The notes beneath the pieces were generated by a model, which was given only the letters and a program-made list of their open reading frames with translations, ran no database searches and was not told where the DNA came from. From NCBI GenBank assembly GCA_015709655.1, contig CP054181.1:919262-983261 (forward strand): a stretch of DNA of 64,000 nt. The letters run 5' to 3'. A program made the position numbers and the translations under genes. Origin of the DNA: Ignavibacteria bacterium (lineage in GTDB: Bacteria; Bacteroidota; Ignavibacteria; Kapaibacteriales; Kapaibacteriaceae). Positions 29,208-49,863 of this stretch are shown here, piece by piece. Every line of letters begins with the position of its first letter. Positions within the stretch are counted from its first letter, which is position 1.

Positions 29208-29228
29208 TCTTAGTCCGTATTTTTGGCA

Positions 29229-32644: not shown

Positions 32645-32661
32645 TTGGTAGATACTACCAA
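32645..32661. terminator. Short hairpin between convergent genes
   Basis: TTGGTAG (32645-32651) and CTACCAA (32655-32661) form a perfect 7-bp stem with a 3-nt loop in the 20-bp gap between surA and the convergent outer-membrane protein gene, overlapping the latter's stop codon. There is only a weak T-run, so bidirectional termination is a guess. Confidence 0.35.
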
Positions 32662-34607
32662 ATCTTACCAATTGTCAGCCTGAAAATATTCTCAGTATAG
32701 CTGCCCCCCAATACAGGTGGAATTACGCTTTCATTAAAGATATTGCGTTCCACCCGTAAATCAATATCGGCATAATCGCCTAACTGTGCCAGTAACGACA
32801 GGTAGAACCCGCTGCGCGTTCCATACATACTGTCAAAAGCCAGCGTTACTCCGCCACTCGTGCTAAACGATTCGCTTATCGCGTAGGCAGCAGCTCCGTC
32901 AACAGTAACAATTGACGTGGCATCCTCCAGCGGCATTTTTTGCACGATATATCCCAGACCTGCCGACAGTGTTAGCGGGATAGTAAAACTCAGGCTCTGC
33001 GAAAGGTTAGCCGACGTGACAGAATAATCGTTAACATGGTTCTTGGTCTCGGCATCCTGACGGGTGAGGGTTAATGTGGTATTGGCCCCGAATGTTCCCA
33101 GCCGATACGCATGGCCGGTAACAACTGACCAAATCACCGTTTCGTTCCGGTACTGCAGGAATGTATCTCGTGAGTTATTAACCTGTGTGTACGGCGAATA
33201 TGACAAGCGAATAAACGGCCATGTCCTGATGTTTAACCCAATGTTAGCCCCCCAGCTTGACAACGTGCTCGTAGAGCGCTTGACATCTGCAAGATTATCT
33301 TCATCATGGCGTATAAAGGCACCAACACTTAACTGTCGTTTCCAGAACTTCTGGTCTATTCGTGCATCGTACCGTATATAGTCTGTTCGAAGGTTGGGGA
33401 CTCCCAAGGCATTGTACCCTGCACCGATTCGCCTGATTTTGGCAACAAGACGCGTTCCCGACGATGCCAGGTTCACTGTGGTACTGCCGGTAAAAGCCCA
33501 ATCGATGTACGCACTCACCGAGCTGTCAATAAGTGTATTTAAAAAGTCAGGGACCTCGGGGCTGCCAATTCGGGGCGCACTCTGGTCACCCTCGGTGAGC
33601 GATCCGGCAAGCTCTGCTTCGAAGCTCCAGATACCCTTTACCGGTTCTGACCGGACGCTGAAGCTTGAGATATAATTCCGCTGAGGTGTCTTGGTTACCC
33701 CGCTATCGGGAAGAGTTAAACTTAAAGCATCATCAGTTGCATACAGGCCGGTAAAAATAAAATGGGCACCTGACTGCCGGCCAAATCCTAACCGGCCACC
33801 GTACAGTTGTCTGCCAAAGTCACTATTGTCAACGGTCCGAAAAACCGTCGTATCAATACGAATACTATCCACTCTATACAATGGCCGCTGGGTTGTACCG
33901 GAAACACCGGCAATGTAAAAAACACCACCCGGATTCCACTCGCCCCAGCCACCCGAGACTCTGGCACCCGACAGTGTAAGTGGCGAGAATGTTGGGAATA
34001 CCGTACCAAATCCTACGGTCGGGAGTTTTTGCATAAAATCTTCTACGTCCGACATCAGGCCCATTTCCTGCAGGACTGAGGAGTAATTTGTAATATCGCC
34101 ATTTGCCAATTCACGCATTTCCTGAATTTTGCGATATTGCTCCAGCTCCTTCAGTTTTTCCGGATCGTACGTACTCAGGGAGTCCTTTATTGAATCATAC
34201 CGGTCAAGCAACTCACCCGCTTCAGAGCGTGCATACGCTTCGAGCATGGTTGTTGCACGCTGGGCAACAATGCGTTTAATTGCATCCGGATCAAGTGTTA
34301 CCGAAAAGGCATTGATATTTTGCCGGATATCCCGCTGCTCGGAACTTACCAGAAGATTTGCCGTTACGGGAAGTCCGTACAGTGACAACGTGGGATTAAG
34401 CTCTGCCCGCCAGATGTCGGGCGGCTGTTCCTGAAACGTACCCTGGCGTGACGACGCCTGTCCTAAAATCCGATAATTACCTGTCAGCCATACCGGTGAA
34501 GCTCCGCCCTTGGCTCCGAATGAGAACCACTGGCCATTGGCAGGGCCAGAAGTCAATGCCATCAGCAGGATGCTAACAGCACACCCCAATCGTTGGCTGC
34601 TGGTCAC
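32655..34607 (-). CDS. Outer-membrane barrel-like protein, unknown
   Basis: 650 aa. The N-terminus (SILLMALTSGPANGQ) is a signal peptide. Residues ~100-200 are helical and charged (YDSIKDSLSTYDPEKLKELEQYRKIQEM), a likely periplasmic coiled segment, while the rest is built of amphipathic strands with many Tyr, Ser and Thr and ends in IFRLTIGKIW, a terminal aromatic residue as in Bam-dependent barrels. No named family recognised. Its ATG overlaps the stop of the RCC1-repeat gene by 4 bp, so the two proteins are probably made together and may act together at the cell surface. Confidence 0.75.
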   Translation of the reverse strand: MTSSQRLGCAVSILLMALTSGPANGQWFSFGAKGGASPVWLTGNYRILGQASSRQGTFQEQPPDIWRAELNPTLSLYGLPVTANLLVSSEQRDIRQNINAFSVTLDPDAIKRIVAQRATTMLEAYARSEAGELLDRYDSIKDSLSTYDPEKLKELEQYRKIQEMRELANGDITNYSSVLQEMGLMSDVEDFMQKLPTVGFGTVFPTFSPLTLSGARVSGGWGEWNPGGVFYIAGVSGTTQRPLYRVDSIRIDTTVFRTVDNSDFGRQLYGGRLGFGRQSGAHFIFTGLYATDDALSLTLPDSGVTKTPQRNYISSFSVRSEPVKGIWSFEAELAGSLTEGDQSAPRIGSPEVPDFLNTLIDSSVSAYIDWAFTGSTTVNLASSGTRLVAKIRRIGAGYNALGVPNLRTDYIRYDARIDQKFWKRQLSVGAFIRHDEDNLADVKRSTSTLSSWGANIGLNIRTWPFIRLSYSPYTQVNNSRDTFLQYRNETVIWSVVTGHAYRLGTFGANTTLTLTRQDAETKNHVNDYSVTSANLSQSLSFTIPLTLSAGLGYIVQKMPLEDATSIVTVDGAAAYAISESFSTSGGVTLAFDSMYGTRSGFYLSLLAQLGDYADIDLRVERNIFNESVIPPVLGGSYTENIFRLTIGKIW

Positions 34608-37603
34608 TTGGTTGCTAACCGCTCAACGCGTAGTGGACCAATTGCCGGATTCAAAGGCACAGGGACAAGGTTGATGATATTACCCTCGCCTAACTGACCA
34701 AACGAGTTGTTACCCCACGTCCACAAACTACCGTCAGCCAGTACTGCCATTGCATGGGCGCCACCGGCAACGATTCCCTGAGCCCCTTCTAAGCGGGCAA
34801 CCTTAACCGGCTTAAACTTACCAACGCGGGTACCGTCGCCCAACTGTCCAAGAACATTATTCCCCCATGCCCATACTACACCGCTACTGTCCAGTGCCAG
34901 TGAGAAACCGTCACCGGCAGCAATGGCGCGAATATCATGAAGATCAGGAATAATCTTGGGTTGTGCTCTGTCCTCCGTTTCACCATCGCCCAGTTGTCCG
35001 CTTGCATTACCACCCCAGGCCCAAACCTTACCATCAGCATTCAGGGCCAGGCTGTGGTCGAACCCTGCTGCAACAGCAACAAAACCATTTATTGCACCTT
35101 TTCCGCCATACACAGGTTGGTAGCCAGGGAATGTGACTGACGTTGGAACCGTGGTATATGCCTCATCATCAGATGCACCGGTCTGGCCATGACAATTATT
35201 ACCCCAGGCATACACCCTGCCCATGTAGTTCAGCGAAAGGGTATGCCCTTCACCGGCTGCAATATCAACAACCCCTTGTAGCTTAGGATACAATGCAGGT
35301 ACAGATAAATACACTGAACTATCAATCTGGTTAGTAGTTGGGTTAATGTGTAAGTTGGCAGGGAACCCGCACGCATAGGCTCTGTTCCAGCCCCACACAT
35401 AACACTGCCCCGACTTGTTAATCGCAACAGTATGGAATGGTCCGGATGAAACCTTCACAACATTCGCCACACCAGGGATCGTGGTGGGAGTGGACCTTCC
35501 GTTTTCATCCTGCAAGCCTAATTGGCGGAAGTTGTTTCTGCCCCAGCCTTTGAGTACGCCCTTCTTATCAACTGCAAACGAATTCCATACTCCGGCTTCG
35601 AGTGACATGACCTCTTCAAAGTCCGTAATTTGTTTAGGTTCTTTCACAACGCTTCCAAAGCCACCCCGAACCACGTTAAACAAATTATCGCCCCAGCCCC
35701 ATACCTTACCCTTATCAGTGATTTTAGCCAGTGCAGAGGCATCCAACACCGACTTGATCCCTTTATCCATTTCAACATCCGAAAGGTCTGCAACCTGGAT
35801 ATTATCGGTACTCACCGCCCTCACCCCACCAAAACCGCCGGCTACACCACCAACGGTTCCTCCTATCATCGGCTTAGCCTCGCTACCAGCATCTACGTCG
35901 TTGTCTGCAGACTGTCCGCCTGTACCGCCTGTCTGGTAACCGCCTAACGGTTTATCCTTTACCTTGGCAGATTGCATCGCAGCCCCTGCACCAAGGACAG
36001 AAGACGCCGTATGACCCTTTTGTGCCGGCGATGTTTCATTAACCACCATCACACCTTGAATGGCGATATCGCCTGCTTTTACCATTTCAAGATTATCAAG
36101 AAGACTGCTTTGCAGTAGTCCTGCCGGTTTGCTTGCAGGCGTACCAACTAAGCTGTGGCGTTCTCCGGCCGACATAACCTGAACCGGATACTTCACCTTG
36201 TCCAGTTTTTCCTTGTCAAAAAACTTAAAATCATCAACGTTAACATGTCCGATTTCCGACGAGTCAATTACCAGTATTCTTGCGTTTCGATTCAGGTATG
36301 GCAGCACATCCCACTCTACGGGAGTAAACCGGTCGCTGCTTGCCGCGGCGCTCATTGGTGTTGAATTGGCAATAAACCAGGTAGAGCTGGATCCCGGCAG
36401 TGTACGTTTTTGAAAACTAAATGTATCCGATTCTATACGCTCGAGCAGCAGTTCTACACGACAATTCTCGTTGGGAACACCACCGAACAGAAACGATATG
36501 GTACTGTTTTGAATCCGGAAGTCAACGCTAATCATCGTCCCTTGCGCTTTATCCGAACTCAACTGTCCATAGCTGCTAACCCAGTATTTCCCCTGAGGCC
36601 CTACAGCTCCAAAAACCGGATGTTTATCAAGCACGGGGTCATCGAAAAAGCTTTCACCCTGGACTTCCCAGCATCCCAATGTTCCAATTTCAAAGTCCCA
36701 GTTCTCTCCAGGACATTCATCGCTTTTCTCCAGAGACTGATTGTTCTTCTTTTGTGTTGGAACCACAGCAGTGACATCTCCGCCATCTCCTTCGCCAAAC
36801 GGCTCATAGGTAAACCACCACACTTCGCTTTCGCCAAGTGGTACAACCATGGTACCCCGTTCTTCGTATGCTTCAACCTTCCAGGCATACTTCTGCCCCT
36901 TTACAAAGCTTCGGCTTGACACCGGATACTGGATGAGCGTTCTTTCAAGATTACGCTGTGTGAACCATGCCGGATTTCGGGTCACCGCATCTTCCGGCGT
37001 TTGTCGTCCAAGAATTTCGGCAACTGTGATTTTATATTTAATTCGCTGACCTGGTCCGGGAGGCACCGAAGCCATCCACGTAAACACCGGAAACTTATCG
37101 GGAACAGCCGACTCATCCACCGGGGAAATCAGAATCGGTGCCGACATCCGGTTTACCGTTGTGAACTTACAGTCGAACCCAACCATCTGCTGGGTTTCCA
37201 CCTCGTACGCCTCCACACAGATTTTGTAATCGCCTGTAGGGACGTTCCCGGTGGTAAGAAGTGCATCACGGTAACGCGGATTGGACTGATCGTGTGTAAT
37301 TGGCGAAATACCAGCGGCCGTCACCCGAAAAACCCCGGGCGGTACATCGAACTCGGCACTATGGGCCTCGGCAACAATACCATCGGGCACCGACATCTCT
37401 TCGGCTGTCCCGCGCAGATAAATTCTAACCGTCTGCCGCGACCTGTTTACCAGCTCGATTTTCCATAGATCAGCAATCTTTACCTGATTCATAGGGGGCT
37501 GGGTAAGCCGCACATCAACCAGAACCGGCTGAGCCACCAGTGCAACTGCAGTCATGACAAGGCCGGCAACAATACTTGCTATGTTTAATAAATAACGTTT
37601 CAT
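34604..37603 (-). CDS. Secreted protein with Fn3-like domain and seven RCC1 repeats
   Basis: 999 aa from the ATG at 37603 (GGGGTG upstream); an upstream extension of 16 residues lacks signal-peptide character. Residues 1-24 are a signal peptide ending ALVAQ. Residues ~25-280 hold beta-sandwich-like segments (SAPILISPVDESAVPDKFPV, WKVEAYEER, of fibronectin type III style), ~300-480 another beta domain, and ~495-620 a Gly/Ala-rich linker. From ~625 to the end are seven RCC1-like repeats with the VWAWGxNxxGQLGDG pattern, enough for one complete seven-bladed propeller. Probably a surface or periplasmic binding protein. Divergent from the 1749-aa gene and coupled to the outer-membrane protein gene downstream. 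Confidence 0.85.
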   Translation of the reverse strand: MKRYLLNIASIVAGLVMTAVALVAQPVLVDVRLTQPPMNQVKIADLWKIELVNRSRQTVRIYLRGTAEEMSVPDGIVAEAHSAEFDVPPGVFRVTAAGISPITHDQSNPRYRDALLTTGNVPTGDYKICVEAYEVETQQMVGFDCKFTTVNRMSAPILISPVDESAVPDKFPVFTWMASVPPGPGQRIKYKITVAEILGRQTPEDAVTRNPAWFTQRNLERTLIQYPVSSRSFVKGQKYAWKVEAYEERGTMVVPLGESEVWWFTYEPFGEGDGGDVTAVVPTQKKNNQSLEKSDECPGENWDFEIGTLGCWEVQGESFFDDPVLDKHPVFGAVGPQGKYWVSSYGQLSSDKAQGTMISVDFRIQNSTISFLFGGVPNENCRVELLLERIESDTFSFQKRTLPGSSSTWFIANSTPMSAAASSDRFTPVEWDVLPYLNRNARILVIDSSEIGHVNVDDFKFFDKEKLDKVKYPVQVMSAGERHSLVGTPASKPAGLLQSSLLDNLEMVKAGDIAIQGVMVVNETSPAQKGHTASSVLGAGAAMQSAKVKDKPLGGYQTGGTGGQSADNDVDAGSEAKPMIGGTVGGVAGGFGGVRAVSTDNIQVADLSDVEMDKGIKSVLDASALAKITDKGKVWGWGDNLFNVVRGGFGSVVKEPKQITDFEEVMSLEAGVWNSFAVDKKGVLKGWGRNNFRQLGLQDENGRSTPTTIPGVANVVKVSSGPFHTVAINKSGQCYVWGWNRAYACGFPANLHINPTTNQIDSSVYLSVPALYPKLQGVVDIAAGEGHTLSLNYMGRVYAWGNNCHGQTGASDDEAYTTVPTSVTFPGYQPVYGGKGAINGFVAVAAGFDHSLALNADGKVWAWGGNASGQLGDGETEDRAQPKIIPDLHDIRAIAAGDGFSLALDSSGVVWAWGNNVLGQLGDGTRVGKFKPVKVARLEGAQGIVAGGAHAMAVLADGSLWTWGNNSFGQLGEGNIINLVPVPLNPAIGPLRVERLATK

Positions 37604-37915
37604 AGCACACCCCAGATAATTACAATTACTTCCCGATGCAAGAGCGAACATAACGAATTTGTGGTTGCATCCTTTGCGTGTTACAACTACTACAGGCGAA
37701 ATATTAATACATCACCTTTTTTTATCACAAACGCTTACGAAGAGGCCCGGGAATTGTTCCAGAACAAAGCGATAGTAGACAAAAACACATCCGAATTACA
37801 GCGCTCCGGACCCGGGCCATGGAATTTTGTCAGCACCAGATCAGCATTGATAAAAACTGGGAACTTTTTTGCAAGTTTAAAGCGTATATTCACGCAGATT
37901 ATTCGGGGTTGACTT
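37604..37915. other. 312-bp divergent intergenic region
   Basis: No gene seen. It separates the RCC1-repeat gene from the 1749-aa gene and must contain promoters for both. It holds a perfect palindrome TTGTTC-CA-GAACAA at 37754-37767, near the middle, which is a candidate operator. CCCGGG occurs twice (37747-37752 and 37811-37816), each followed by an AATT. No clear -35/-10 pair could be assigned with confidence. Confidence 0.5.
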
Positions 37916-40900
37916 ATGAAACGTTTGCTTTCGTTTTCAAATCTTGTTCGCAACAGTACGCCCGGTGTGGCAGCGGAACCGGTAAGGCTCTCAGGTGTTG
38001 CACAATATCCCGGCAAATATGCGTTGTCACGCCGGCAGGCGCTGGGCATTGCCGGGACCTTGTCGCTGGCAGCGGCACCCTTGGCATCAGCCGTCGGACA
38101 GCTTTTTGCTGCGCGCTTCAGTATGGTCCGGCGCAAACAGCTTGTTGCATTTCAGGTAGCCGGTAAGGACAGGTGGGTTATCAATCCCGCAAGCTTCGAT
38201 GGCACGCCGGTACTCACGGTGCAGGAGAGCAGTAACGCAATTCAACTTCAGCTACGGTCTGCCTTCTTCCCCGGTACAACGATACCTGCCGACTTCACGG
38301 CCGTTATCGAAGGAACCACAAAGTCCTCCCTTACGCTAACACTCAATAAGCTTAACATCTCGTTTAAAGCCCCTTTCGTACCCTGGCTGCTTGATCAGGA
38401 TGTCCCCGAAGTAGAGGTACCAAAAACACTTAGTATCGTCTGTGGCAACGCCGGCATTACCATTGGTTCCGGAGCGCGGTTTCAAATGCGTCCGTCGTGG
38501 ACGCTCTCGGCCAAGGGGACGGTGCGTGCTGAGGTCCATACAGCCGCTGGTACAGCAGAACGTAACGCTGTTCGAGCCGATATTCAGCTTAACCCAACGC
38601 ACTCTATGCTGGTTCCGGCTGCCAAACTTGCCAGTCTGGTACGTCTGCACCGTGGTAACAACAGCTGGGACGTCCCTGTCCATGTTGTTGACACACCAAG
38701 CTGGGACGTGGTAGCCCACAACGATGCGTTTGAAACTCTCACCATCGAATCATCAACCGACGACCGTCAGGCCTATCTTTACGAAGGCCCAACCGACGGC
38801 AAGGTTGCCGTGCATGTTCACGAACTCAATGCAACACTGCCACTGCGCAACCCGCGGTATGGTTATGGTATTGGTGCTGACGGAGTGCACGAGGCCTTTG
38901 TTGCCAATTACTCCGAATCACCCAACTGGGTGATTGTTGGCGGAGTAAGCCTGGAGCTCTCGGATCGTGCGGGTATCCCGCCGCTTCAGCTTGAGCGTGT
39001 TGGCAACCGCATTACCAAGTGTGTGGTTGCACCCGGGTTGCGGCGATATACCATCCCGATTGACGGAACGATTACCCAGCCAACGGTTACCAAACCAGGC
39101 GTTCACCTTGCCCTTATGCCAGCTGGCGTATATGCCATGGCATTGCCTAAACCATCGTACTCACTTGCATCGCTGCAATTGGGAACCGGTACGCTAAATA
39201 AAGGAGAACTTAAGGTAGGCGGACAGAATATCCAGAATGTGGAAATGGCTTCCGACGATGCCGCAAGCAGCGTGAAGGGTATTGGCAAGGCAAAAATGAA
39301 GGCCAAGTACAGGGAGTTTGGTCCCAAGTTTGACCTTACGCTACCCGGTAATCCGGTTGTTACCGTGATCCGTCCTGATGACCTTGTTGTACTCTCGTTC
39401 GAATTTGCGGGCCTCACCATAAACAAAGGCGCCGGCACCTTTGGAGGAACAGGCAAACTCATTGTCCACTTCCAGCCGCAACATATTGCTGAGCGCGCAT
39501 TCTTTTATGTAAACGGACCTGACAAACCCGCCAATCCCAATCCACCACTTCCGCCAAGCGCCCCGAAAAACTCGGGTGTTGATGAGCCTATTGGTGAACC
39601 CCCAATCGAAAGTGTTCTTTCCAATCCCTCCCGCCTGGTTTTTACCACTCCTAACGGTTATTCGGGAACTTACTCTATCGAAGGACTGCTGGACTGGAGC
39701 AAATTCACGCTTCGGGTGTCGCCGAGTGCCAAACCACCTGAACCGGACTTTGCGCTGGCAATTATGCAGACAGCTTTTTTGGGGAAATACACATTGGCAG
39801 AAGCTGCCTTAGATCCCAAACCCGGCACCAGTAAAGCCAAGAAAAAAGTTGGAGGGGATTCCGGAGGCAGCAAACAATTCCAGGTCGGCTCGGCAAATCT
39901 GATGCTAAAGGGCTCCAAGGCGGCTGTAGCGAGTAACGTGAACTCCAAGGTTAAGGTCCAGTTTCAGGGTCACTCTGACTTCTCAAACATGTTTACTGAA
40001 ACCTTTGCTGCGGGGTATCTTGCTGCACAGTTGGCTAAGCCCCCAATAAAGGTACCGGCATCCGACGAAACCGTTATTGAATATCCGTACAGGGTAATGT
40101 TGTCACCAAACGTGTACGCCGGTTGGTCACATTCTGCAAAGCCCAAAACCAACACTGAAAATCGTCGGACCGAACTGTGGCATACCCGCCTTGGCGTGAA
40201 ACACAGTGACGGCACTGTAAGCGAGGAAGCCGCATACTTTAGGACCGTGCGGGCAATCTGGAGTCCCGATTATGGAACCGACTACCTGATGCCGGCAAAG
40301 TTTAAGGAACGTCCGTTCAGAACCTCACTCAACCGGCGGGATCGCCATGAAATTGTTCGCCTTACCAGCGATTACGACATGGCCACCAAGAATCTCCCCG
40401 TGAAGGTTAACCAGCTAATGCTCACGGCATTGGGGGCATGGGCCGACATGGCGGGTAACTGGGACCCCCTTGGACAGGACCAGCTTGACGTTGAAACATG
40501 GATTCAGCGCGGCACTCAGGGACGCGACCATTTTGTTCGGGTATGCTACAAAGGCTTCTTATTCCCCTTTGGCAACCGCGCCACCCTGGTCAAAGAAACA
40601 GAACGCAAGTTTGTTCGCACTCCCAGGGGGCACATGGCTGCCTATTTAATGCAGCGCCTGTACATCATCCTGCGTCAGCCGGAACGTGACCTGCCTGCCA
40701 GCGGTCTCGATGGTATGGAGTATATGGGAAGGGGCTTCCCATTCAGGAAAATTACAATAACAACAAAGACAACGCCTAACCTGTTTTCACCTGACCTTCA
40801 GCAAACGCCGGCTGGCTCATCACCTACATTGTCGATTGCACTTGGCAATGGCATGGGCAGCAATAGTTTGTGGCCGGTTTTCAGCAATAATGGTGTTAAT

Positions 40901-43165
40901 CAGGATGTACAATGGTCATGCATTGGCCGCGACTGGGATAATAACGATATTCACTTTTCGGTTCCCCTGGCGTTTATCGCAAATACCGATGCCACGGGTG
41001 CCAACTGTCAGAACTGGATTACAAACAAATACAAGACTGAGACCGCACGGCGCACTGTTAACATGGCGGGACAGTCTATAGCCTATGCTCCATCAGCAAA
41101 AAAAGGCGATACGTCACTGCCAACGAAAAATTTTCTGCTGAATGGCTATTATGCTCCCGGAGCCGAAATCAATACACCAAGGTTCTTCCCCTCAATGCAG
41201 AAGAGTTCCGTTGTCATCGAGAAGGTTGCGGAACTCATGGGCACGAATGAACCACGAGAAATTGAGTACTTCCTATCCTATCTGAAGTATGCTTTTGAAA
41301 AGGGAACACCACCCGGACAGGGGGCTGCTTCGGTCAGCCTCGATGCGGTGAAAAATACTGCCCAGGTGTTCGTAAACCTCCTGTCGCCACTTGAAATGAA
41401 TTTTTCGGCACAGTCCGATAAGTCCGGCGGCATAGCAGCACCAAGTATCGGGATTGGCGCACTCTCTCGGCTTATGGGTCCGATCCCGGGTGACTTCACG
41501 TTGGTCGGCAACTTCGCTGACGAAGCAGCCAAGATTGCGGCAATGGCTGACAAGCTCAAGAATGCGGTAGTTGCAGCAGGGAATTTTGATCCGATGCAGT
41601 ACTTCAGCGACCTGCTGAATGCTAAAATTCTTGGCGATATCACGCTCCAGGATGTTCTCAGTTTCGTGATGGACGTGCTGAGCAATTTGGATAAAATGCC
41701 TGGTCTTGATAAAAAAGATGATTTTGGCATGGGCGACAAACTCAAGGAAGGAATGTCGAACGCCGATGTTGCCTCCATGCTGCAAGAGGTTAAGGATCAG
41801 GTTGACAAGATAAAAGATACTGCCTCGGAAATTGCTGATGGCGTTAATCAGGAAGTCAAAGAAGCCAAACAAGCAGCTCTGGATGTTGCCGCCAGCGTTA
41901 AAAATCAGATTGATGAAGCAGTATCGAAACTTAATTCTGGCGCCGAAGAAATTAAAAAGTATATCGAAACCGAGATTAAGCAGTGGAAGAAGAAGGTTGA
42001 AGATGCAGCCAACGAGCTGAAATCTGAAATCGAGAAGGCTCTTAAACCTCTGAAAGAAGCCGGTAACGAAGCATATAAAATGTACGAGGAAGCTAATAAT
42101 GCCCTTAACATTCTCAAACAAGGTCTGAACTTGGTTTTTGAATGGCAGACGGAAATCAAGAGTACACCGGGTGACATTCTGGTGCCACTGCATTCCTCAC
42201 CCTCCAATGATTCCGATAAGGCAATCCTGTACCTTAAAGCTGAAATAAAGAAGGGCCTGGATCTAAATCCGCCCGAAGTTCTGCTCTTTGGTTCAATCTC
42301 GAACTTCATTGTGAACCTCATTGGTACCGGTGCAGCACAGTTCCTGATTATTAAATTCAACCGCATCGCTCTCTCGGTAAAGATCGGCGAAAAACCAAGT
42401 ATCGATCCGGATATCGAAGCGGTGGAATTTGCCGGCCCCCTCACGTTTATCAATAAACTTAAAGACCTGATCCCAAGCGGTGGCAGTGCCGGCGGCGTTG
42501 GCTTTTCGTTCTCGTTCGACGTTCAACCATCGGGGGTATCGGCTACACTTACAATTACACTACCCAACGTTACCGTTGGAGTGTTCTCATTACAGAACCT
42601 AAGCTTCCTGATGCGGGTTACCATCCCGTTTGACGGACGACCATTCTCGGCATATTTCGCGTTCTGTACCAAGGACAATCCGTTCCGCATCACCATCATG
42701 ATGTTTGGCGGCGGTGGCTTCTTTGGTATCGAAATCACGCCTAAGGGTGTGCGGATGCTCGAAGCTGCCTTTGAGTTTGGCGGCAACTTCTCGTTTGACT
42801 GCGGCGTTGCTTCCGGTGGTGCCAGTGTCATGGCCGGGATTTACTACAAGCTGGAGATAAAGCAGGTTGATGGCAAGGACGTTGAGCAAAGCGAACTAAC
42901 CGGTTACTTTAAACTCACCGGCAATCTGAGTGTACTCGGGCTGATCAGAGTATCGCTGCTATTCGAACTTAAGCTTACATGGCAAGGAAACGGGAAGGTA
43001 TTTGGTACTGCAACAATCGAGGTTGAGATCGAAATCCTCTTCCTCAGCTTTAGCGTCGGCGTTACCGTGGAACGCCAGTTCAAGGGTGACGATGCTGACC
43101 CAACCTTTATTGACCAGTTCCCGGAACAACCTATGTGGCTGGAATATTGTAACGCATTTGCATAA
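37916..43165 (+). CDS. Very large exported protein (1749 aa), unknown, with Tat-like signal and central coiled coil
   Basis: I do not recognise a family. Residues 38-59 read SRRQALGIAGTLSLAAAPLASA, a twin-arginine-like signal preceded by a 37-residue extension. Residues ~70-520 are strand-rich, ~540-640 contain Pro- and Lys/Gly-rich linkers (NPPLPPSAPK, KPGTSKAKKKVGGDSGG), ~690-1150 are mixed with many Trp and Tyr, and ~1280-1405 form a long charged helical/coiled-coil segment. From ~1425 to 1740 comes a glycine- and Phe-rich strand domain (MMFGGGGFFGIEITPKGVRM, GVASGGASVMAGIYYKLEI). An 11-bp gap and AAGGAG at its stop link it to the next large gene. The sequence gives no enzymatic motif. A structural or envelope-associated role is inferred only. 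Confidence 0.8.
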   Translation: MKRLLSFSNLVRNSTPGVAAEPVRLSGVAQYPGKYALSRRQALGIAGTLSLAAAPLASAVGQLFAARFSMVRRKQLVAFQVAGKDRWVINPASFDGTPVLTVQESSNAIQLQLRSAFFPGTTIPADFTAVIEGTTKSSLTLTLNKLNISFKAPFVPWLLDQDVPEVEVPKTLSIVCGNAGITIGSGARFQMRPSWTLSAKGTVRAEVHTAAGTAERNAVRADIQLNPTHSMLVPAAKLASLVRLHRGNNSWDVPVHVVDTPSWDVVAHNDAFETLTIESSTDDRQAYLYEGPTDGKVAVHVHELNATLPLRNPRYGYGIGADGVHEAFVANYSESPNWVIVGGVSLELSDRAGIPPLQLERVGNRITKCVVAPGLRRYTIPIDGTITQPTVTKPGVHLALMPAGVYAMALPKPSYSLASLQLGTGTLNKGELKVGGQNIQNVEMASDDAASSVKGIGKAKMKAKYREFGPKFDLTLPGNPVVTVIRPDDLVVLSFEFAGLTINKGAGTFGGTGKLIVHFQPQHIAERAFFYVNGPDKPANPNPPLPPSAPKNSGVDEPIGEPPIESVLSNPSRLVFTTPNGYSGTYSIEGLLDWSKFTLRVSPSAKPPEPDFALAIMQTAFLGKYTLAEAALDPKPGTSKAKKKVGGDSGGSKQFQVGSANLMLKGSKAAVASNVNSKVKVQFQGHSDFSNMFTETFAAGYLAAQLAKPPIKVPASDETVIEYPYRVMLSPNVYAGWSHSAKPKTNTENRRTELWHTRLGVKHSDGTVSEEAAYFRTVRAIWSPDYGTDYLMPAKFKERPFRTSLNRRDRHEIVRLTSDYDMATKNLPVKVNQLMLTALGAWADMAGNWDPLGQDQLDVETWIQRGTQGRDHFVRVCYKGFLFPFGNRATLVKETERKFVRTPRGHMAAYLMQRLYIILRQPERDLPASGLDGMEYMGRGFPFRKITITTKTTPNLFSPDLQQTPAGSSPTLSIALGNGMGSNSLWPVFSNNGVNQDVQWSCIGRDWDNNDIHFSVPLAFIANTDATGANCQNWITNKYKTETARRTVNMAGQSIAYAPSAKKGDTSLPTKNFLLNGYYAPGAEINTPRFFPSMQKSSVVIEKVAELMGTNEPREIEYFLSYLKYAFEKGTPPGQGAASVSLDAVKNTAQVFVNLLSPLEMNFSAQSDKSGGIAAPSIGIGALSRLMGPIPGDFTLVGNFADEAAKIAAMADKLKNAVVAAGNFDPMQYFSDLLNAKILGDITLQDVLSFVMDVLSNLDKMPGLDKKDDFGMGDKLKEGMSNADVASMLQEVKDQVDKIKDTASEIADGVNQEVKEAKQAALDVAASVKNQIDEAVSKLNSGAEEIKKYIETEIKQWKKKVEDAANELKSEIEKALKPLKEAGNEAYKMYEEANNALNILKQGLNLVFEWQTEIKSTPGDILVPLHSSPSNDSDKAILYLKAEIKKGLDLNPPEVLLFGSISNFIVNLIGTGAAQFLIIKFNRIALSVKIGEKPSIDPDIEAVEFAGPLTFINKLKDLIPSGGSAGGVGFSFSFDVQPSGVSATLTITLPNVTVGVFSLQNLSFLMRVTIPFDGRPFSAYFAFCTKDNPFRITIMMFGGGGFFGIEITPKGVRMLEAAFEFGGNFSFDCGVASGGASVMAGIYYKLEIKQVDGKDVEQSELTGYFKLTGNLSVLGLIRVSLLFELKLTWQGNGKVFGTATIEVEIEILFLSFSVGVTVERQFKGDDADPTFIDQFPEQPMWLEYCNAFA

Positions 43166-43176
43166 GGAGTGATATC

Positions 43177-46100
43177 ATGGCAACAACAACACAAGAACTA
43201 CAGTTTACCGTAATCCCCTACGATGTTGATGTTCGTGACTCAGGAACATGGCTCCGCGCTGCAATCGTACTGACTCCGCGGCTTCAGGATGTTACATCGG
43301 CACCTACTACCTTAGCCAGTTATCCGGATTTTCTTGACTGGCCGGAATCATTAAAAAAACTGAGTTTTGAATTAGTTGTCAACGGGACTACTATACCCGG
43401 TAATGAGCTGACCGTGATTGACGAACAGCCCGACAGCGATGTCTGGAAAGCTGTATTCAATGAAAACACCGCTGTTAATCCCCATGGTGTGGGAGAGGTG
43501 TGGCCTAGCTACCAGATTATTAGTTTCTCCCCTCTGGAAGTTGACAGTGCCTTGCGTAGTACCTATACAAAACTTGTACAAACGTTTACAGACAAGACGC
43601 CTGTTTTTGAACCACCCAAAATTGCAAATGCTACTTTAAAGGTTAGTCAGACCAGCCAGCCACCCCTTATTGAGGCGCTGTCAGGTATTATACCAAGTAT
43701 GGATCAGGAGCAACAATTCAGGAATGTTCTGAACCAATGGGAAAAAAGTGGCCAGGCAGCCACGCAGCGAGCCATGCGCAACGAGGGCAATACCGAGTCA
43801 AGACAAAAACGAGGTACGGGCCAGAAGGAACGGATCCCAATCCCACAGAAAGTTGAACAAATGATGTTCCCGGTACCGCTGGGCGAAGGAATCACACCGG
43901 ATTCAAAAGCCGGCTCACTGCTCATGGCGGAACTGTATCATAAGGCTCGTATCTATCCAGTAGATACCGTCTCCGGGAAGAACAGAACGTACCGCGATCG
44001 GCGTCCGAAGATTAAAAAACCAACGTTCGACTTCCACCAGGTTGTTGGTGTGCTGCGTGAGTTTCCTGTAGTGATGCGACGCCTCGGCCTTACAATTCAT
44101 GTTGAATTTAAAGCCCCTTCATCACTTGGTAATGTGGGTAAAATCTCGTGTAACGTACAATGGAAGGTTGCCGCAGCCATACCAACAACCACCATCTCCC
44201 CGTTTACGCGTTACATTTTCAATGACTCCGGTGATAAACAATTTTGGCAGTTCCTGCCCAAGCCCCTTGACGGGTCTGAAATCGTTGGTCCGCTCCTCTG
44301 CTTAAACAACCCCGAGCATTTTGCGGTTACTCAAATCGACCTCGACTCGTCAGCCTTGAAAATGCTTGGTTATATACGAAACATCTTGCACCGTTATTCC
44401 AAAACACGGGATACGCCAGATGCTTATTTGTCTGCCGAGCCCCCGGCAATTCGTGGTACGGGCTTGCAGCTCATTCGGAAGAACCGTGGACTAAAGCTTG
44501 CAAAATCCATTATTCGGAACAGCCAGCACTGGAATTCGCTGATTGCAAATAACACGCCGGTATTACATGCCGACGATGTGATGCGTGGCTATCGTATAGA
44601 TATTTACGATGAAACCGCAGGGACATGGCAAAGCTTGATGCGTAGGAACGCAACCTATACCTTCCCGCTTGCCGATGAACCACTGCGATCGGCCGGTATC
44701 AGTGTTACCGACGAAGAGGGCGTGCTTACCTTTGGAGCATCCCGACCGCCAGGAAGTGAAGACGATCCGTCCCTGCAACAGCTGTATGCACACGAAGTGA
44801 TTGCACAGTGGGAAGGCTGGTCGATTGTTGCACCGCCAATTGGACAGTTTATTGACAACGATGACCAGATTGCGCCCGGGAGCAATAAACAAAAGCCGCC
44901 GGCAGACTACGCCTACCAGGTTGAATCCGATATTTCAATCGTACCCAAATCCCTACCTCGATTACGGTACGGACGGAAGTACAGGATGCGCGCACGATTT
45001 ACCGATATCGCAGGTAACAGTGCCAAACTTTCAGATATGAATCCCGCTGACTTTACCTGCGCTACCGATGCCGTACGGTACGTGCGCTGGGATCCGATTG
45101 GTTCGCCAACACTTGCACTGCGCAATCATCCCGTTGAGGGCGAGGATATCGAAACCATGGTAATTCGGAACTACAATGCAAGCGAGGATGATACACAGGT
45201 TGTTCAAACTACCGAAACCTGTGAACGCCATTTCTTCCCGCCGCTGGCGTCAGTTCAGACTGCGGAACGGCATGGTCTGTTCGATAAAAGTCCAACGGAA
45301 GAGATGGTTGGCAACAACACAATGTTCGACCTGATTCGTGGGAAGGAGAAGTCGTTGCCACAGCGGTGGTACACACGAAATGAGAACGGCAACCTGCAAG
45401 CCGAAGCTACTGACAACACTCCGCCATCGGATCCCAATAAAAAGAAAACTGCCATAGCGTACCCGCTGGTACAAGCCGGCAGTACGGAGGTCCCGTATCT
45501 CCCTGATCCAATTGCCCGGACTGTTACCCTTAGCAATGTGCCCGGCTTAAACACAGGTGATATTATCGAGATCAATACCGGAGGGGCTACTCAGGCTACC
45601 GTGGCGATCGGAACATCGGTTGTTACGATTGGCTTTGATACCTTTAGTCAGTGGCCTGCGCTTTCGTCCATTTTACTCCGACTTGCCGAGGGGAACAAGA
45701 AACCCGTGTGGGAGGCTTCATCAAAAACGCTGACCCTTTTCCTTCCTGCCGGCGAACAGGCATGGATACAGTTTAGCAGCGGCCTTGGCGACAAGGATTC
45801 TGAGGCTAAACACAATCTGGATTTGCATGGTCATAAACAAACATTGATAGATGCCGGTCTGCCGGCCGTTCAGGTACATAACGCTGGTCGTGGATTAAAC
45901 TGGCTGATTTCGCCCGCACGTACTCTGCACCTTGTTCATGCTACTCAAAAGCCGCTTAAAAAACCAGAAATCGTCAAGCAAAGTCTAAAAAGACGTGTCT
46001 TCGGCGGTACCGACGCCACCATCAGCTTTAAACACATCAAGGTTGATGCCCGATCAACACAAAAGATAGATATGTTTACAGATTGGAAAATGTGGATCGA

Positions 46101-47481
46101 TGACGTCACAAAACCCAAGCCGGAAGAAGTTCCGTTCAGTACCTATTTCTTTGACCAACATTGCGAAAAACGTACCGACGATGTGCTGACAACGGAGCGC
46201 ACACAGGAATTTGGTGATACAAAATTCCGTCGGGTTACATTCTCACCGTTGGCAACAACCCGCTTTAAAGAGTATTTGCCAGTCTCCTTACGGTCAAACA
46301 AGGACAATCTTACTCGAAAGGGACCGGGTAAGGAAATGATCATACCCAGCACGAAGCGTCCGGATGGTGTTCACTTTCTTTATGCTGTTCCCTCGTTCCG
46401 CTGGGTTGAGTCCGAGAAGAAACTTGTAGGCAACGTCATAAAAAGTACACGTAAGGGCGGTGGAGTACGAGTGTACATGAACAGGCCGTGGTATAGTTCA
46501 GGCAATGGTGAACTGCTTGGTGTTGTGCTCTATAACAGCCAGCCGTTCAAGCCCTCAGCCGTCAATACCGAAACCGATAACGATGATAACAACAATTCTT
46601 ATAAGGGAATTAAACTCGGTCTGAGTGAATCCGGCAGCACCGGCTATGCCGATAAAATGGCTGGTATTGCCTCGATACTTGCAACGGGGAAACTCGAAAT
46701 TCCTGAGGAGTTGCATCCTTTCGTCACTCAATGGGGGCTTGACCCCATCTGGCTAAGTGAGCCCACCCCAAGCGATAACTCACCAAGAGTGCCAAATTTC
46801 CGCGATCCTGCCCTGGTACTGCCCAGTGTAAGTCTGGAAGAGGTCAACCCCAAGCAGCGCTTTACTGTGGTTGCGTTCGAGCCAAAGTTCGATGAAGACC
46901 GGAAACTGTGGTATTGCGATATCGATCTGGATCCGGGCGAATCTTACTATCCCTTTGTGAGGTTTGGTCTTGTTCGCGTACAGGAACATTCCCTAGCTGA
47001 CGCTGCTACCGGTAAGGATGTTTACTGCTCCCGCGTTACGCAAAGTACGTTTTGCCAGTTAGCTCCTGACCGCGAGGCTATGGTGAGGATTGAAGATGAT
47101 GGTAAGAATATCAGCATCCAGGTTACCGGCCATACCTACCGGACTAACTCTGTTGGACAATTGGGGAGTGAAATCGAGGTTGCCCTTGAACGACGTGACC
47201 CTGGTGCAGGAAGTACCGACCTCGGGTGGACGCGTGTAACACACCAACGGTTAGACAGAATTCATGCTGCCAATATCTGGGCTGGTATGATTGCATTAAA
47301 AGAACCTATTGGCAGCACCCAGTACCGCATGGTTATTACCGAGCTGGAATCATTCTTCTCCGATCCGGACGATCCGAGACGCCGCCAGACAAGTCTTGGT
47401 GACCCGAAGTCCGGCCAGGGTCCAATTACCTTAGAGGTTAGCAACCGCATCGTTTATGCAGATGTCCTGGAACTGTTCTAA
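43177..47481 (+). CDS. Very large protein (1434 aa), unknown, partner of the 1749-aa protein
   Basis: 1434 aa with a perfect AAGGAG site at 43164-43169 that overlaps the stop of the preceding gene, so the pair is co-translated. No signal peptide: the start is MATTTQELQFTVIPYDVDVRD. The N-terminal ~150 residues and much of the rest look like beta-rich, immunoglobulin-like modules; LRYGRKYRMRARFTDIAGNSAKLSD (near residue 590) resembles an Fn3/Ig-type strand pattern. A basic/Lys-rich patch lies at ~205-225, and a VTLSNVPGLNTGDIIEINTG segment near 785. No catalytic motif is recognisable. If its partner is exported, this one may be cytoplasmic or use another route. Function unknown. Confidence 0.8.
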   Translation: MATTTQELQFTVIPYDVDVRDSGTWLRAAIVLTPRLQDVTSAPTTLASYPDFLDWPESLKKLSFELVVNGTTIPGNELTVIDEQPDSDVWKAVFNENTAVNPHGVGEVWPSYQIISFSPLEVDSALRSTYTKLVQTFTDKTPVFEPPKIANATLKVSQTSQPPLIEALSGIIPSMDQEQQFRNVLNQWEKSGQAATQRAMRNEGNTESRQKRGTGQKERIPIPQKVEQMMFPVPLGEGITPDSKAGSLLMAELYHKARIYPVDTVSGKNRTYRDRRPKIKKPTFDFHQVVGVLREFPVVMRRLGLTIHVEFKAPSSLGNVGKISCNVQWKVAAAIPTTTISPFTRYIFNDSGDKQFWQFLPKPLDGSEIVGPLLCLNNPEHFAVTQIDLDSSALKMLGYIRNILHRYSKTRDTPDAYLSAEPPAIRGTGLQLIRKNRGLKLAKSIIRNSQHWNSLIANNTPVLHADDVMRGYRIDIYDETAGTWQSLMRRNATYTFPLADEPLRSAGISVTDEEGVLTFGASRPPGSEDDPSLQQLYAHEVIAQWEGWSIVAPPIGQFIDNDDQIAPGSNKQKPPADYAYQVESDISIVPKSLPRLRYGRKYRMRARFTDIAGNSAKLSDMNPADFTCATDAVRYVRWDPIGSPTLALRNHPVEGEDIETMVIRNYNASEDDTQVVQTTETCERHFFPPLASVQTAERHGLFDKSPTEEMVGNNTMFDLIRGKEKSLPQRWYTRNENGNLQAEATDNTPPSDPNKKKTAIAYPLVQAGSTEVPYLPDPIARTVTLSNVPGLNTGDIIEINTGGATQATVAIGTSVVTIGFDTFSQWPALSSILLRLAEGNKKPVWEASSKTLTLFLPAGEQAWIQFSSGLGDKDSEAKHNLDLHGHKQTLIDAGLPAVQVHNAGRGLNWLISPARTLHLVHATQKPLKKPEIVKQSLKRRVFGGTDATISFKHIKVDARSTQKIDMFTDWKMWIDDVTKPKPEEVPFSTYFFDQHCEKRTDDVLTTERTQEFGDTKFRRVTFSPLATTRFKEYLPVSLRSNKDNLTRKGPGKEMIIPSTKRPDGVHFLYAVPSFRWVESEKKLVGNVIKSTRKGGGVRVYMNRPWYSSGNGELLGVVLYNSQPFKPSAVNTETDNDDNNNSYKGIKLGLSESGSTGYADKMAGIASILATGKLEIPEELHPFVTQWGLDPIWLSEPTPSDNSPRVPNFRDPALVLPSVSLEEVNPKQRFTVVAFEPKFDEDRKLWYCDIDLDPGESYYPFVRFGLVRVQEHSLADAATGKDVYCSRVTQSTFCQLAPDREAMVRIEDDGKNISIQVTGHTYRTNSVGQLGSEIEVALERRDPGAGSTDLGWTRVTHQRLDRIHAANIWAGMIALKEPIGSTQYRMVITELESFFSDPDDPRRRQTSLGDPKSGQGPITLEVSNRIVYADVLELF

Positions 47482-47511
47482 ACAGTTCCCTCCACTATAT
47501 TAACTACCCGC

Positions 47512-47543
47512 AAAGCCCGTCACACAGTGTATAACGGGCTTTT
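47512..47543 (+). terminator. Rho-independent terminator after the 1434-aa gene
   Basis: AAAGCCCGT (47512-47520) pairs perfectly with ACGGGCTTT (47534-47542), a 9-bp G+C-rich stem with a 13-nt loop, ending in TTTT. It lies 30 bp after the stop of the large gene and separates that transcript from the Fnr-like regulator gene. Confidence 0.75.
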
Positions 47544-47572
47544 GTATTTCCGACCATTTCCACGTCACTCAC

Positions 47573-47609: not shown

Positions 47610-48335
47610 ATGACATCAAGCAGAACACACCACCAAGAGAAAACGCTAAACTGCGATAAGTGCGGCGGTATGCATGATTCTATCTTCTGTGCAATGGGCA
47701 AGTTGGATCTTGGAATCCTTGCCGAGAATAAAACTATGCTTCACTTTAAAAAGGGGCAGGTGATCTTTCATCAGAACACTCACCCCCAGGGGCTGTACTG
47801 CGTGCACTCGGGCAAGGTTGTTATTCACTCCTACAACGACAACGGACGTAATCAGATTTTACGACTGGCCAAATGCGGAAGTATCCTGGGCTACCGAGCC
47901 TTATTTACCAACGAGCGCTACCATGTTTCGGCCACCGCAATCGAGGACTCCACGGTATGCTATTTCCCTCAGTCGGCATACCAGGAACATATTATTTCGA
48001 ATCATTCAGTGGCAATTGAAATTATCAAATTGCTGTCGGCTGACCTAAAAACAGCCGAGTTGAAAGCCATGAGCATGGTTCATAAACAGGTGCGCGAGCG
48101 GATCGCAGAAACCCTGATTGTATTGCGCGACTTTTTTGGAACCGAAGAAAATAACGTCACCTTAAACACCATCCTGTCCCGGGAAAACATTGCCGACATT
48201 GCCGGTGCAACTACCGAAACCACCATTCGGGTTCTCTCGGATTTCCAGAAGGCAGGGATTATAGAGCTAGCAGGGAAGAGTATCGGTATTCTTAACGTTA
48301 AAGAGTTGCTCAGGATTGCCAACCTTCCAGAGTAA
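47610..48335 (+). CDS. Fnr-like Crp-family regulator with candidate iron-sulfur cysteines
   Basis: 241 aa. N-terminal cysteines 15, 18 and 27 (CDKC, then SIFC) plus Cys117 in EDSTVCYFP correspond to the four 4Fe-4S ligands of E. coli Fnr (the last aligns with Cys122 in SMVCEIP), though the third spacing is C-x8-C rather than C-x5-C. Residues ~40-130 are the cyclic-nucleotide-like barrel, ~135-165 the dimer helix, ~185-235 the winged helix-turn-helix. The recognition helix reads GATTETTIRVL: the Glu and Arg of Fnr's ETISR are kept, its Ser is replaced by Ile. It is convergent to the nar operon and very probably its oxygen-responsive activator. Confidence 0.9.
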   Translation: MTSSRTHHQEKTLNCDKCGGMHDSIFCAMGKLDLGILAENKTMLHFKKGQVIFHQNTHPQGLYCVHSGKVVIHSYNDNGRNQILRLAKCGSILGYRALFTNERYHVSATAIEDSTVCYFPQSAYQEHIISNHSVAIEIIKLLSADLKTAELKAMSMVHKQVRERIAETLIVLRDFFGTEENNVTLNTILSRENIADIAGATTETTIRVLSDFQKAGIIELAGKSIGILNVKELLRIANLPE

Positions 48336-48427: not shown

Positions 48428-49153
48428 TTAATTGTTTGTTGCCTTCTTCCCTGCTGAGTGCGCGCGCGACACCCGAATCTCACGCCGGTTCCAGTTCCAA
48501 ATCACTTGCTGGTAACCGCGCCAGAGATAATCCAACGGATAAACCAGGAAGTGCATGAACCGCGTAAACGGGATAATGCCGATTAGGCAAAATGCCGATA
48601 CAACGTGGATTTTTAGTGACAGTGAAGTAACCCCGGCAATACCCTCGATTTGTGGGTCGAAAACAAAAATCGATCGCAGATATGGCGTTAAAAACGCGGC
48701 AAACCACGAGGATCCCCACCTGTCGAAGTAGGCAACAAGAACACCGGTTACCAACTGAGTCAGGAGAATAATGTACACCACAATGTCCATGGGACTCGTT
48801 ACCACATGTAACCTTCGTGTAGTAATTCTCCGATAGATTAGCAGCAACAATCCAATTAAAGATGCTAATCCGAATGAAAAAGCCGAAACTTCAAGAATGA
48901 TTAACCGTACCGGATCACCATTCCATGCCAGGACGGTTTTGGGAATCAGGAACGCCGTGAGGTGTCCGAAGAATACTATCATCAGACCCCAGTGAAACGG
49001 CTGGCTTGCCCAAAACAGTTCACGTCCTTCTAAAAATTGCGACGATATAGACGATACGCTGAACCCTTTTCTGCGATAGCGATAGATAGACCCTATAAGG
49101 AAAACAGCCAACGATACGTATGGCAAAACTGCGAATAACAGGTAGTTTGTCAT
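48428..49153 (-). CDS. narI: Respiratory nitrate reductase gamma subunit (cytochrome b)
   Basis: 241 aa integral membrane protein with five hydrophobic segments. It oxidises quinol at the membrane and passes electrons through two b hemes to NarH. The four heme-ligand histidines are in place: His54 and His64 (QPFHWGLMIVFFGHLTAF), His183 and His201 (SLKIHVVSAF, TRFMHFLVYP), matching E. coli NarI 56/66/187/205. Last gene of the operon, 2 bp after narJ and followed by a strong terminator. Confidence 0.95.
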   Translation of the reverse strand: MTNYLLFAVLPYVSLAVFLIGSIYRYRRKGFSVSSISSQFLEGRELFWASQPFHWGLMIVFFGHLTAFLIPKTVLAWNGDPVRLIILEVSAFSFGLASLIGLLLLIYRRITTRRLHVVTSPMDIVVYIILLTQLVTGVLVAYFDRWGSSWFAAFLTPYLRSIFVFDPQIEGIAGVTSLSLKIHVVSAFCLIGIIPFTRFMHFLVYPLDYLWRGYQQVIWNWNRREIRVSRAHSAGKKATNN

Positions 49154-49155
49154 AG

Positions 49156-49863
49156 TTAATCAAGTTTATAATTAGTGGCTATGGTATGCACTTCGGCGTT
49201 AATGCTGTTCTTTCCAAAAAACGCTTTGTGATGCTGACTTGTTAAAATCTCTTCATTACTGAGCGGAGCCGGAGCTTCGGCAAAATCTTCCCTAAGCACA
49301 CAAAGCAGCGACTCGAACACATTCCGGTACACGTTGCCCTGATTAAGCTCTTCCTGAATGATTGCATTGTGAAGTTTGCGCATCACCCGTATCTTTAGCT
49401 CAACTCTTGCCTGCGCAAACTCACCAATCATTTTTTCAACAGCAGGAATCACGATTTGTCCGGTTAGCTCATTCAAAAACACCTGGTTATGATGCTTGGT
49501 CAGTAAAACAAGTACGTTGCTGATATTGTCCGGCAAGTCGGTGCCACAGTCATTGTTAATCATAAGCTGCTCGTTCTGCATGTGTAGCAGAAAAGCACCC
49601 CGCTTGTAATCCTCACCAAATATCACGTACCCAAGGTCAAGATAACAGACCGGTTGAACATCGAACGTTTTAGTGTAGAGTTCTTCCCAGGCATCAGAAT
49701 CATGTTCACGGATATAATCAACAAAGGGGCTTAGCATCTGCGCCGCTTCCGGATAGACGTCCTGCAACACCTTGCTTGTTGACTCTACAAGCTCCCTGTA
49801 GTTATCCTGAGGATATCGCAGTAGATCAGCAAACAGATAATATAATTCTGTATTTTTCATCAT
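49156..49863 (-). CDS. narJ: Nitrate reductase assembly chaperone
   Basis: 235 aa, all-helical TorD/NarJ family protein needed for insertion of the molybdenum cofactor into NarG before membrane docking. The N-terminus (LYYLFADLLRYPQDNYRELV) and the core YTKTFDVQPVCYLDLGYVIFGEDYKRG are diagnostic of NarJ. Its start overlaps the narH stop by one base (TAATG), and it ends 2 bp before narI, so translation is coupled along the operon. Confidence 0.94.
   Translation of the reverse strand: MMKNTELYYLFADLLRYPQDNYRELVESTSKVLQDVYPEAAQMLSPFVDYIREHDSDAWEELYTKTFDVQPVCYLDLGYVIFGEDYKRGAFLLHMQNEQLMINNDCGTDLPDNISNVLVLLTKHHNQVFLNELTGQIVIPAVEKMIGEFAQARVELKIRVMRKLHNAIIQEELNQGNVYRNVFESLLCVLREDFAEAPAPLSNEEILTSQHHKAFFGKNSINAEVHTIATNYKLD

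Follow-up and report, generated by a model that had tools for sequence, protein, structure and literature searches.

The twin-arginine translocation (Tat) pathway is established as an exporter of heterodimers and other heteromers that carry a signal on one partner (PMC10924467, PMC4273604), and its cargo is reported to reach 150 kDa (review, PMC6708511). In the Bacteroidota, TANFOR proteins are giants exported by the general secretory (Sec) pathway and associated with the type IX secretion system (T9SS) (PMC7073777). Here we describe two large adjoining genes, A and B, in the complete 2.84 Mb genome of an Ignavibacteria bacterium (CP054181.1). They lie in a 64,000-nt stretch at 919,262–983,261, which we call the window and whose positions serve as coordinates below. 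What is new are the two protein families and their obligate pairing, absent from every library searched; the transport logic that we propose (Tat, with a partner riding along) and the fold types are of kinds already known.

The locus resembles Tat hitchhiker complexes such as PaoABC in having a twin-arginine (RR) signal on one partner, coupled genes, and TatC (PMC4273604, PMC10924467). It differs from them in that A and B are giant proteins that lack a cofactor motif or family and whose size lies above the reported limit of 150 kDa (PMC6708511); moreover, many relatives are signal-less, and transport of this pair is something we infer. An original prediction, made from the DNA letters alone, had proposed the pair as a free-standing two-component module with a surface or extracellular role.

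The pairing of A and B

In all 87 loci that had upstream DNA, A immediately preceded B on the same strand; at six further loci without A, B begins at the contig edge in each. The gap between the genes had a median of 12 bases across the 87 loci, and the genes frequently overlapped. Within a sample of 395 genomes of the phylum, A was present in 17 out of 17 B-positive genomes, and none had B alone. Other matches to A in this sample were two coiled-coil chance matches and a partial one at a contig edge (G231:C11:132-827), a distant match to the A C-terminal domain on a 2123-amino acid (aa) open frame, with no B detected. Homologues therefore adjoin throughout, the result that the original prediction had named as support for a two-component system, and the outcomes it had named as contrary (homology to a known family, or homologues standing apart) were not seen.

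Outside T9SS-bearing Bacteroidota, neighbour clustering and Pfam revealed no recurring third gene, which supports a two-component unit. Pairwise distances of A and B were strongly correlated (r = 0.92; maximum 0.12 in 500 label shuffles); part of this correlation is common ancestry of linked genes, and alone it is no proof of contact. We consider it likely that A and B form one two-subunit complex. The sequence features named in the original prediction were all recovered (Table 1): both open reading frames, at exactly the positions given, the overlap of the AAGGAG site with the stop codon of A, and the terminator after B. The stability of the terminator hairpin was equalled in one of 200 shuffles; its loop is too long for the simple terminator scan, which therefore overlooked it. 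Both frames are protein-conserved in 80+ genomes and are therefore not chance open reading frames.

Neither protein could be assigned to a family, in line with the earlier failure to recognise a motif. B had no family match in Pfam, NCBIfam, PHROGs, PADLOC, or PDB sequences, and the same libraries returned for A only coiled-coil or apolipoprotein-type matches around residues 1280–1410. These lie solely in a variable helical insert and are therefore chance matches; an apolipoprotein or coiled-coil identity of A was rejected. No family emerged either when relatives (18 of B and 17 of A) were compared singly with Pfam, or when the A and B alignments were used as profiles against PDB sequences. 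The two proteins are not mutual duplicates, with no profile similarity between them. Annotated records of A and B that we examined were labelled only "hypothetical protein," and the open-access literature contained no publication on the pair that we could find.

Export signal and predicted folds

A carries the Tat-like signal that had been predicted. The segment SRRQALGIAGTLSLAAAPLASA (residues 38–59) has an RR motif, then an uncharged hydrophobic stretch, and finally an AxA-type cleavage site. By an automatic test, 29 of the 79 A proteins whose 5' end was intact had an RR signal, as against 0 of 79 B proteins, whose N-termini have low hydrophobicity; at least three more A signals were seen by eye (L053, L066, and L115). 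Signal-bearing A proteins come from Bacteroidota, Zipacnadia, Armatimonadota, Aminicenantes, Chloroflexi, and a Streptomyces. TatC scored above cut-off in all 15 genomes tested (the own genome and 14 relatives), including relatives with a signal-less A, so that TatC alone does not discriminate. Since the RR signal is on A and none is on B, Tat export with B riding along is the most likely route. Tat export of A in this organism is probable, while the riding of B on A is a more tentative proposal that we place slightly below even odds.

A dedicated TatA beside the pair was considered and rejected, as such a gene was found only in Sinorhizobium meliloti and not at other pairs. There, a tatA-like gene (L038 13271-13438) directly follows the pair on the conjugative plasmid pC of strain LMB1, and the pair itself is unusually large (3052 and 1766 aa).

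The fold of A was predicted with AlphaFold on orthologue L080 (1112 aa; mean predicted local distance difference test score, pLDDT, of 81), and residues 235–1434 of B were modelled likewise (mean pLDDT 84). Structural match lists cover well only residues 1525–1729 of A and 924–1434 of B; the lack of a fold assignment for the remaining parts is no evidence of a new fold, and the matches to these predicted models are shapes, not functions. The C-terminal part of the L080 model consists of long antiparallel strands of 10–19 residues each, which superpose on OmpG (Z 13.4, root-mean-square deviation [rmsd] 4.2 over 179 residues) and CymA (Z 13.3, rmsd 5.6 over 190 residues). The Gly/Phe-rich strand end that had been described for A was thus borne out, with Gly and Phe making up 24% of residues 1525–1729 versus 13% of the entire protein. 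The likeness to OmpG and CymA barrels (Z of ∼13 in one orthologue model) has its limits: A has no barrel-terminal signature, ending in a short conserved helix and not in a porin-style C-terminal strand, and A homologues occur in monoderm bacteria (Streptomyces and Chloroflexi). The AFA-ending pattern of this terminus was found in 73 of 87 A proteins, with near variants in most of the remaining ones. At the other end, residues 61–479 are missing from alpha/beta-proteobacterial A, which starts near a VVRxDDLLxLR motif.

The modelled residues 924–1434 of B match strings of fibronectin-III/immunoglobulin (Ig)-like domains (Z 8–10, top 9.7), and single domains superpose at rmsd 2–3 over about 95 residues. 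Pfam fn3 gives no match to B despite this FN3-type sandwich fold in the model. The sandwich chain and the negative N-terminal test agree with the earlier description of B as a signal-less protein of beta-rich modules. In its predicted fold B resembles tenascin, fibronectin, and SiiE-type adhesins; unlike them in sequence, it does not match their families and gives single-domain matches only, and a common fold shows no function.

Neighbouring genes and distribution

Two neighbour families of A–B, denoted C and D, recurred in T9SS-bearing Bacteroidota in our neighbour clustering. In Kapabacteria they lie upstream of the pair in divergent orientation; Balneolales, Rhodothermales, and some relatives have them downstream, on the strand of A–B. 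Members of the C family have in common an N-terminal domain of ∼270 aa, and their C-terminal parts, about half of the protein, are lineage-specific. The C of this genome has seven RCC1 repeats in a bacterial protein that is probably exported. D is predicted to be an outer-membrane barrel by its N-terminus and its aromatic end: its N-termini resemble Sec signals, and its C-terminal Trp is invariant in 12 aligned members (in one, a single residue follows). Outer-membrane barrels end in an aromatic residue. The idea that the C-terminus of A is a relative of barrel D was rejected, there being no similarity.

Strong D matches (E < 1e-150) coincided with genomes that have a signal-bearing A, and all eight tested genomes with both had T9SS sorting domains. 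Two Chlorobi-type genomes tested had A–B without signal, C, D, or T9SS domains. The own genome has 112 T9SS sorting domains (TIGR04183), and an NCBIfam search found none on the C-termini of A or B. Because C–D accompany A–B here, the pair is not entirely free-standing in this genome. The prediction of a free-standing module is supported outside T9SS-bearing Bacteroidota, where no third gene recurs, but needs amending here and in the relatives in which C–D travel with the pair. No phage genes were seen in the neighbourhood, again as predicted.

Table 1. Features of the A–B locus and its immediate neighbours, in window positions
Feature	Position	Strand	Remarks
Gene D, 650 aa, predicted outer-membrane barrel	32655..34607	-	Overlaps C by 4 bases
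Gene C, 1015 aa, secreted-type N-terminal domain and RCC1 repeats	34604..37651	-	Divergent neighbour
Divergent intergenic region between C–D and A–B	37652..37915	.	264 bases
Gene A, large protein of no known family	37916..43165	+	ATG, 1749 aa, 189.8 kDa
Tat-like signal of A, residues 38–60, SRRQALGIAGTLSLAAAPLASAV	38027..38095	+	Conserved in relatives as SRRxxLxLAG
N-terminal extension of A, residues 61–479	38096..39352	+	From alignments
Conserved core of A, ∼residues 480–1284	39353..41767	+	From alignments and orthologue model
Helical/coiled-coil insert of A, residues 1285–1405	41768..42130	+	Varies by lineage; absent from several relatives
Gly/Phe-rich antiparallel strand domain of A, residues 1525–1729	42488..43102	+	Barrel-like in orthologue model
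Conserved extreme C-terminus of A, WLEYCNAFA	43136..43162	+	Conserved pattern WxxYCxAFA
Ribosome-binding site of B, AAGGAG	43164..43169	+	Overlaps A stop TAA (43163-43165); B ATG at 43177
Gene B, no signal, no known family	43177..47481	+	ATG, 1434 aa, 160.2 kDa
Predicted fibronectin-III/Ig-like sandwich domains, B residues 924–1434	45946..47478	+	Model residues 690–1200
Intrinsic terminator, hairpin with T-rich tail	47510..47546	+	-14.4 kcal/mol, z = -2.8

C- and D-type sequences also occur apart from the pair. In relatives of the class Ignavibacteria that have no A–B (L137, L138, L139, L140, and L141), the C and D domains are fused in proteins of 860–1030 aa, which adjoin other C-domain giants of up to about 1800 aa. 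The own genome has a second C-type domain on a 2838-aa open frame (L146, C1:1662518-1663276), with a weak D-like match about 10 kb away (C1:1651658-1652470). Next to D in the window are two overlapping SurA/PrsA-like peptidyl-prolyl isomerase genes (29223-32634), possibly chaperones of envelope proteins; similar-looking ones adjoin D in L144. On the other side, a gene for an Fnr-like (Crp/Fnr) regulator (47610-48335) sits between B and the nitrate reductase beta (narH) and gamma subunit genes (48428-51353, minus strand).

Elsewhere, signal-transduction genes adjoin several pairs (L130 1492-4947, L071 2094-5363, and L117 205-2619; also upstream in L033 and L124 and downstream in L116). Their types are BTAD activator, GAF-SpoIIE, GAF-histidine kinase, response regulator/kinase, and GGDEF, hinting at induced expression of the pair.

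A search for B in a collection with one genome per species identified 314 encoding stretches. The best 80 of these 314 came from Bacteroidota, Pseudomonadota, Actinomycetota, Chloroflexi, Armatimonadota, Acidobacteria/Aminicenantes, Zipacnadia, Geobacter, Verrucomicrobia, and Polyangia/Sandaracinaceae, so that A–B is carried by about ten phyla. The closest named relatives at the locus were Candidatus Kapaibacterium and Ignavibacteria metagenome-assembled genomes (MAGs), which suggests a Kapabacteria-like host within the Bacteroidota. Plasmid copies of the pair were observed in Cupriavidus, Rhizobium, Diaphorobacter, Streptomyces, and Sinorhizobium; no A–B relative was found in 50,697 phage records or 2.9 million viral contigs. 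B was present in 17 of the 395 genomes of the phylum sample, with four out of four in the own genus and zero out of four in the sister genus, and its presence is therefore patchy. The A/B tree intermixes phyla (e.g., Chlorobi with Geobacter and Comamonadaceae), suggesting that the pair has been exchanged horizontally between bacteria.

We also noted several irregular copies. A contig labelled Bradyrhizobiaceae (L058) groups firmly with the Kapabacteria copies and has the same neighbours, and its MAG label is probably wrong. A is broken into overlapping frames in L034, L084, and L117, through either decay or sequencing errors, and L132 has additional partial A copies upstream.

A proposed Tat-exported envelope complex and its alternatives

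The explanation we prefer is that A and B form an envelope complex which leaves the cytoplasm through Tat, A carrying B along; we give this combined reading a probability of roughly 0.42. The coupled mRNA would yield both subunits such that A and B can meet at once, fold, and assemble in the cytoplasm before export. Tat would then carry the complex across the inner membrane, with the signal of A serving B too. The amphipathic C-terminal sheet of A, beta-barrel-like or lipid-binding, may anchor the complex to a membrane or lipid face, and B could extend from there as a jointed rod built of fibronectin/Ig-like domains. At the outer membrane of T9SS-bearing Bacteroidota, the complex would cooperate with C–D, the predicted barrel and the secreted RCC1 protein. 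A structural or adhesive role in the envelope is what we infer from this arrangement.

Several observations weigh against this explanation. About 60% of the A proteins examined had no recognisable signal, and signal-less A was found throughout two big clades (the alpha/beta-proteobacterial one, and one of Chlorobi, Geobacter, Comamonadaceae, and Thiothrix), so that export is not a constant feature of A. The surface or extracellular role put forward originally is accordingly no more than plausible, with an export signal on only about one-third of A proteins. For the barrel-like part of A we rely on the model of an orthologue, whose pLDDT is moderate in this region (70–85), and meandering sheets often give middling Z scores. 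A relatives in Streptomyces and Chloroflexi are without a classical outer membrane; thus, A cannot simply be an outer-membrane porin. Finally, A alone is 190 kDa, and A with B is 350 kDa, versus the reported Tat limit of 150 kDa. Either this limit is deceptive, or the two proteins cross individually, if they cross at all.

The alternative that survives best would keep the pair inside the cell, as a large intracellular two-subunit complex to which the RR motif was a late addition in lineages moving the complex outward. It would account for the two large clades without a signal on either protein, for a B that never carries one, and for the several loci that adjoin signal-transduction and not envelope genes. 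We nevertheless consider it unlikely: RR-x-x-L-x-L-A-G is conserved in six groups scattered over the tree, for which ancestral export with losses is an easier explanation, and both predicted folds resemble extracellular types.

It is less probable again that the pair acts on membranes, with A as a lipid-binding or membrane-inserting protein (a beta-sheet carrier or pore) and B as a carrier or adhesive arm. The long antiparallel strands at the C-terminus of A match those of porins, Foldseek lists weak matches to LptD, microsomal triglyceride transfer protein, and apolipoprotein B, and a Tle1-like phospholipase lies near two loci and a patatin near one. However, whole-model template modelling (TM) scores are very low, family-level matches are weak, the lipase neighbours are not recurrent, and A terminates in its helix where a porin would have a strand.

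A polymorphic-toxin locus of the TANFOR/T9SS type, in which C delivers and A–B is the giant cargo, seems improbable to us. The context is similar: other giant proteins of the phylum bear the secreted N-terminal domain of C, and their genomes abound in T9SS sorting domains; TANFOR proteins too are giant and T9SS-associated (PMC7073777); and Fn3-type proteins lie near the locus in relatives. Two of 16 C domains even matched TIGR02542 weakly, but at E 0.05–0.07, far below the cut-off (67 bits), and the own genome gave no match; C was thus rejected as a TANFOR protein, its likeness being one of context only. Unlike TANFOR toxins, A and B are conserved over their full length with C-termini that are not polymorphic, there is no immunity gene (the gene downstream of B is the Crp/Fnr regulator), and A–B extends far beyond the Bacteroidota to many phyla without C or T9SS. 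An origin from a phage, tail-like particle, or secretion apparatus was rejected as scarcely credible: very large beta-rich proteins share the general shape of tail components and the structure matches listed for B include a phage T5 tail-tip fibre protein, but phage and viral collections contain no relative, no phage genes lie alongside, PHROGs matches are confined to the helical insert of A, and the viral fold search gave no structure match of weight.

The Tat-exported envelope complex invites a broader claim, namely that A–B is a widespread unnamed envelope machine of about ten phyla, horizontally exchanged and in part of its range moved by Tat as a folded complex of ∼350 kDa, far larger than any cargo yet reported for Tat; we regard this claim as doubtful at present. 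If the Tat step is true, A alone exceeds the reported ceiling of 150 kDa, making the Tat size limit directly testable. Naming both families would account for several hundred genes together (314 stretches in one collection scan), and a pair this large, kept end to end over about ten phyla and on plasmids, must be useful.

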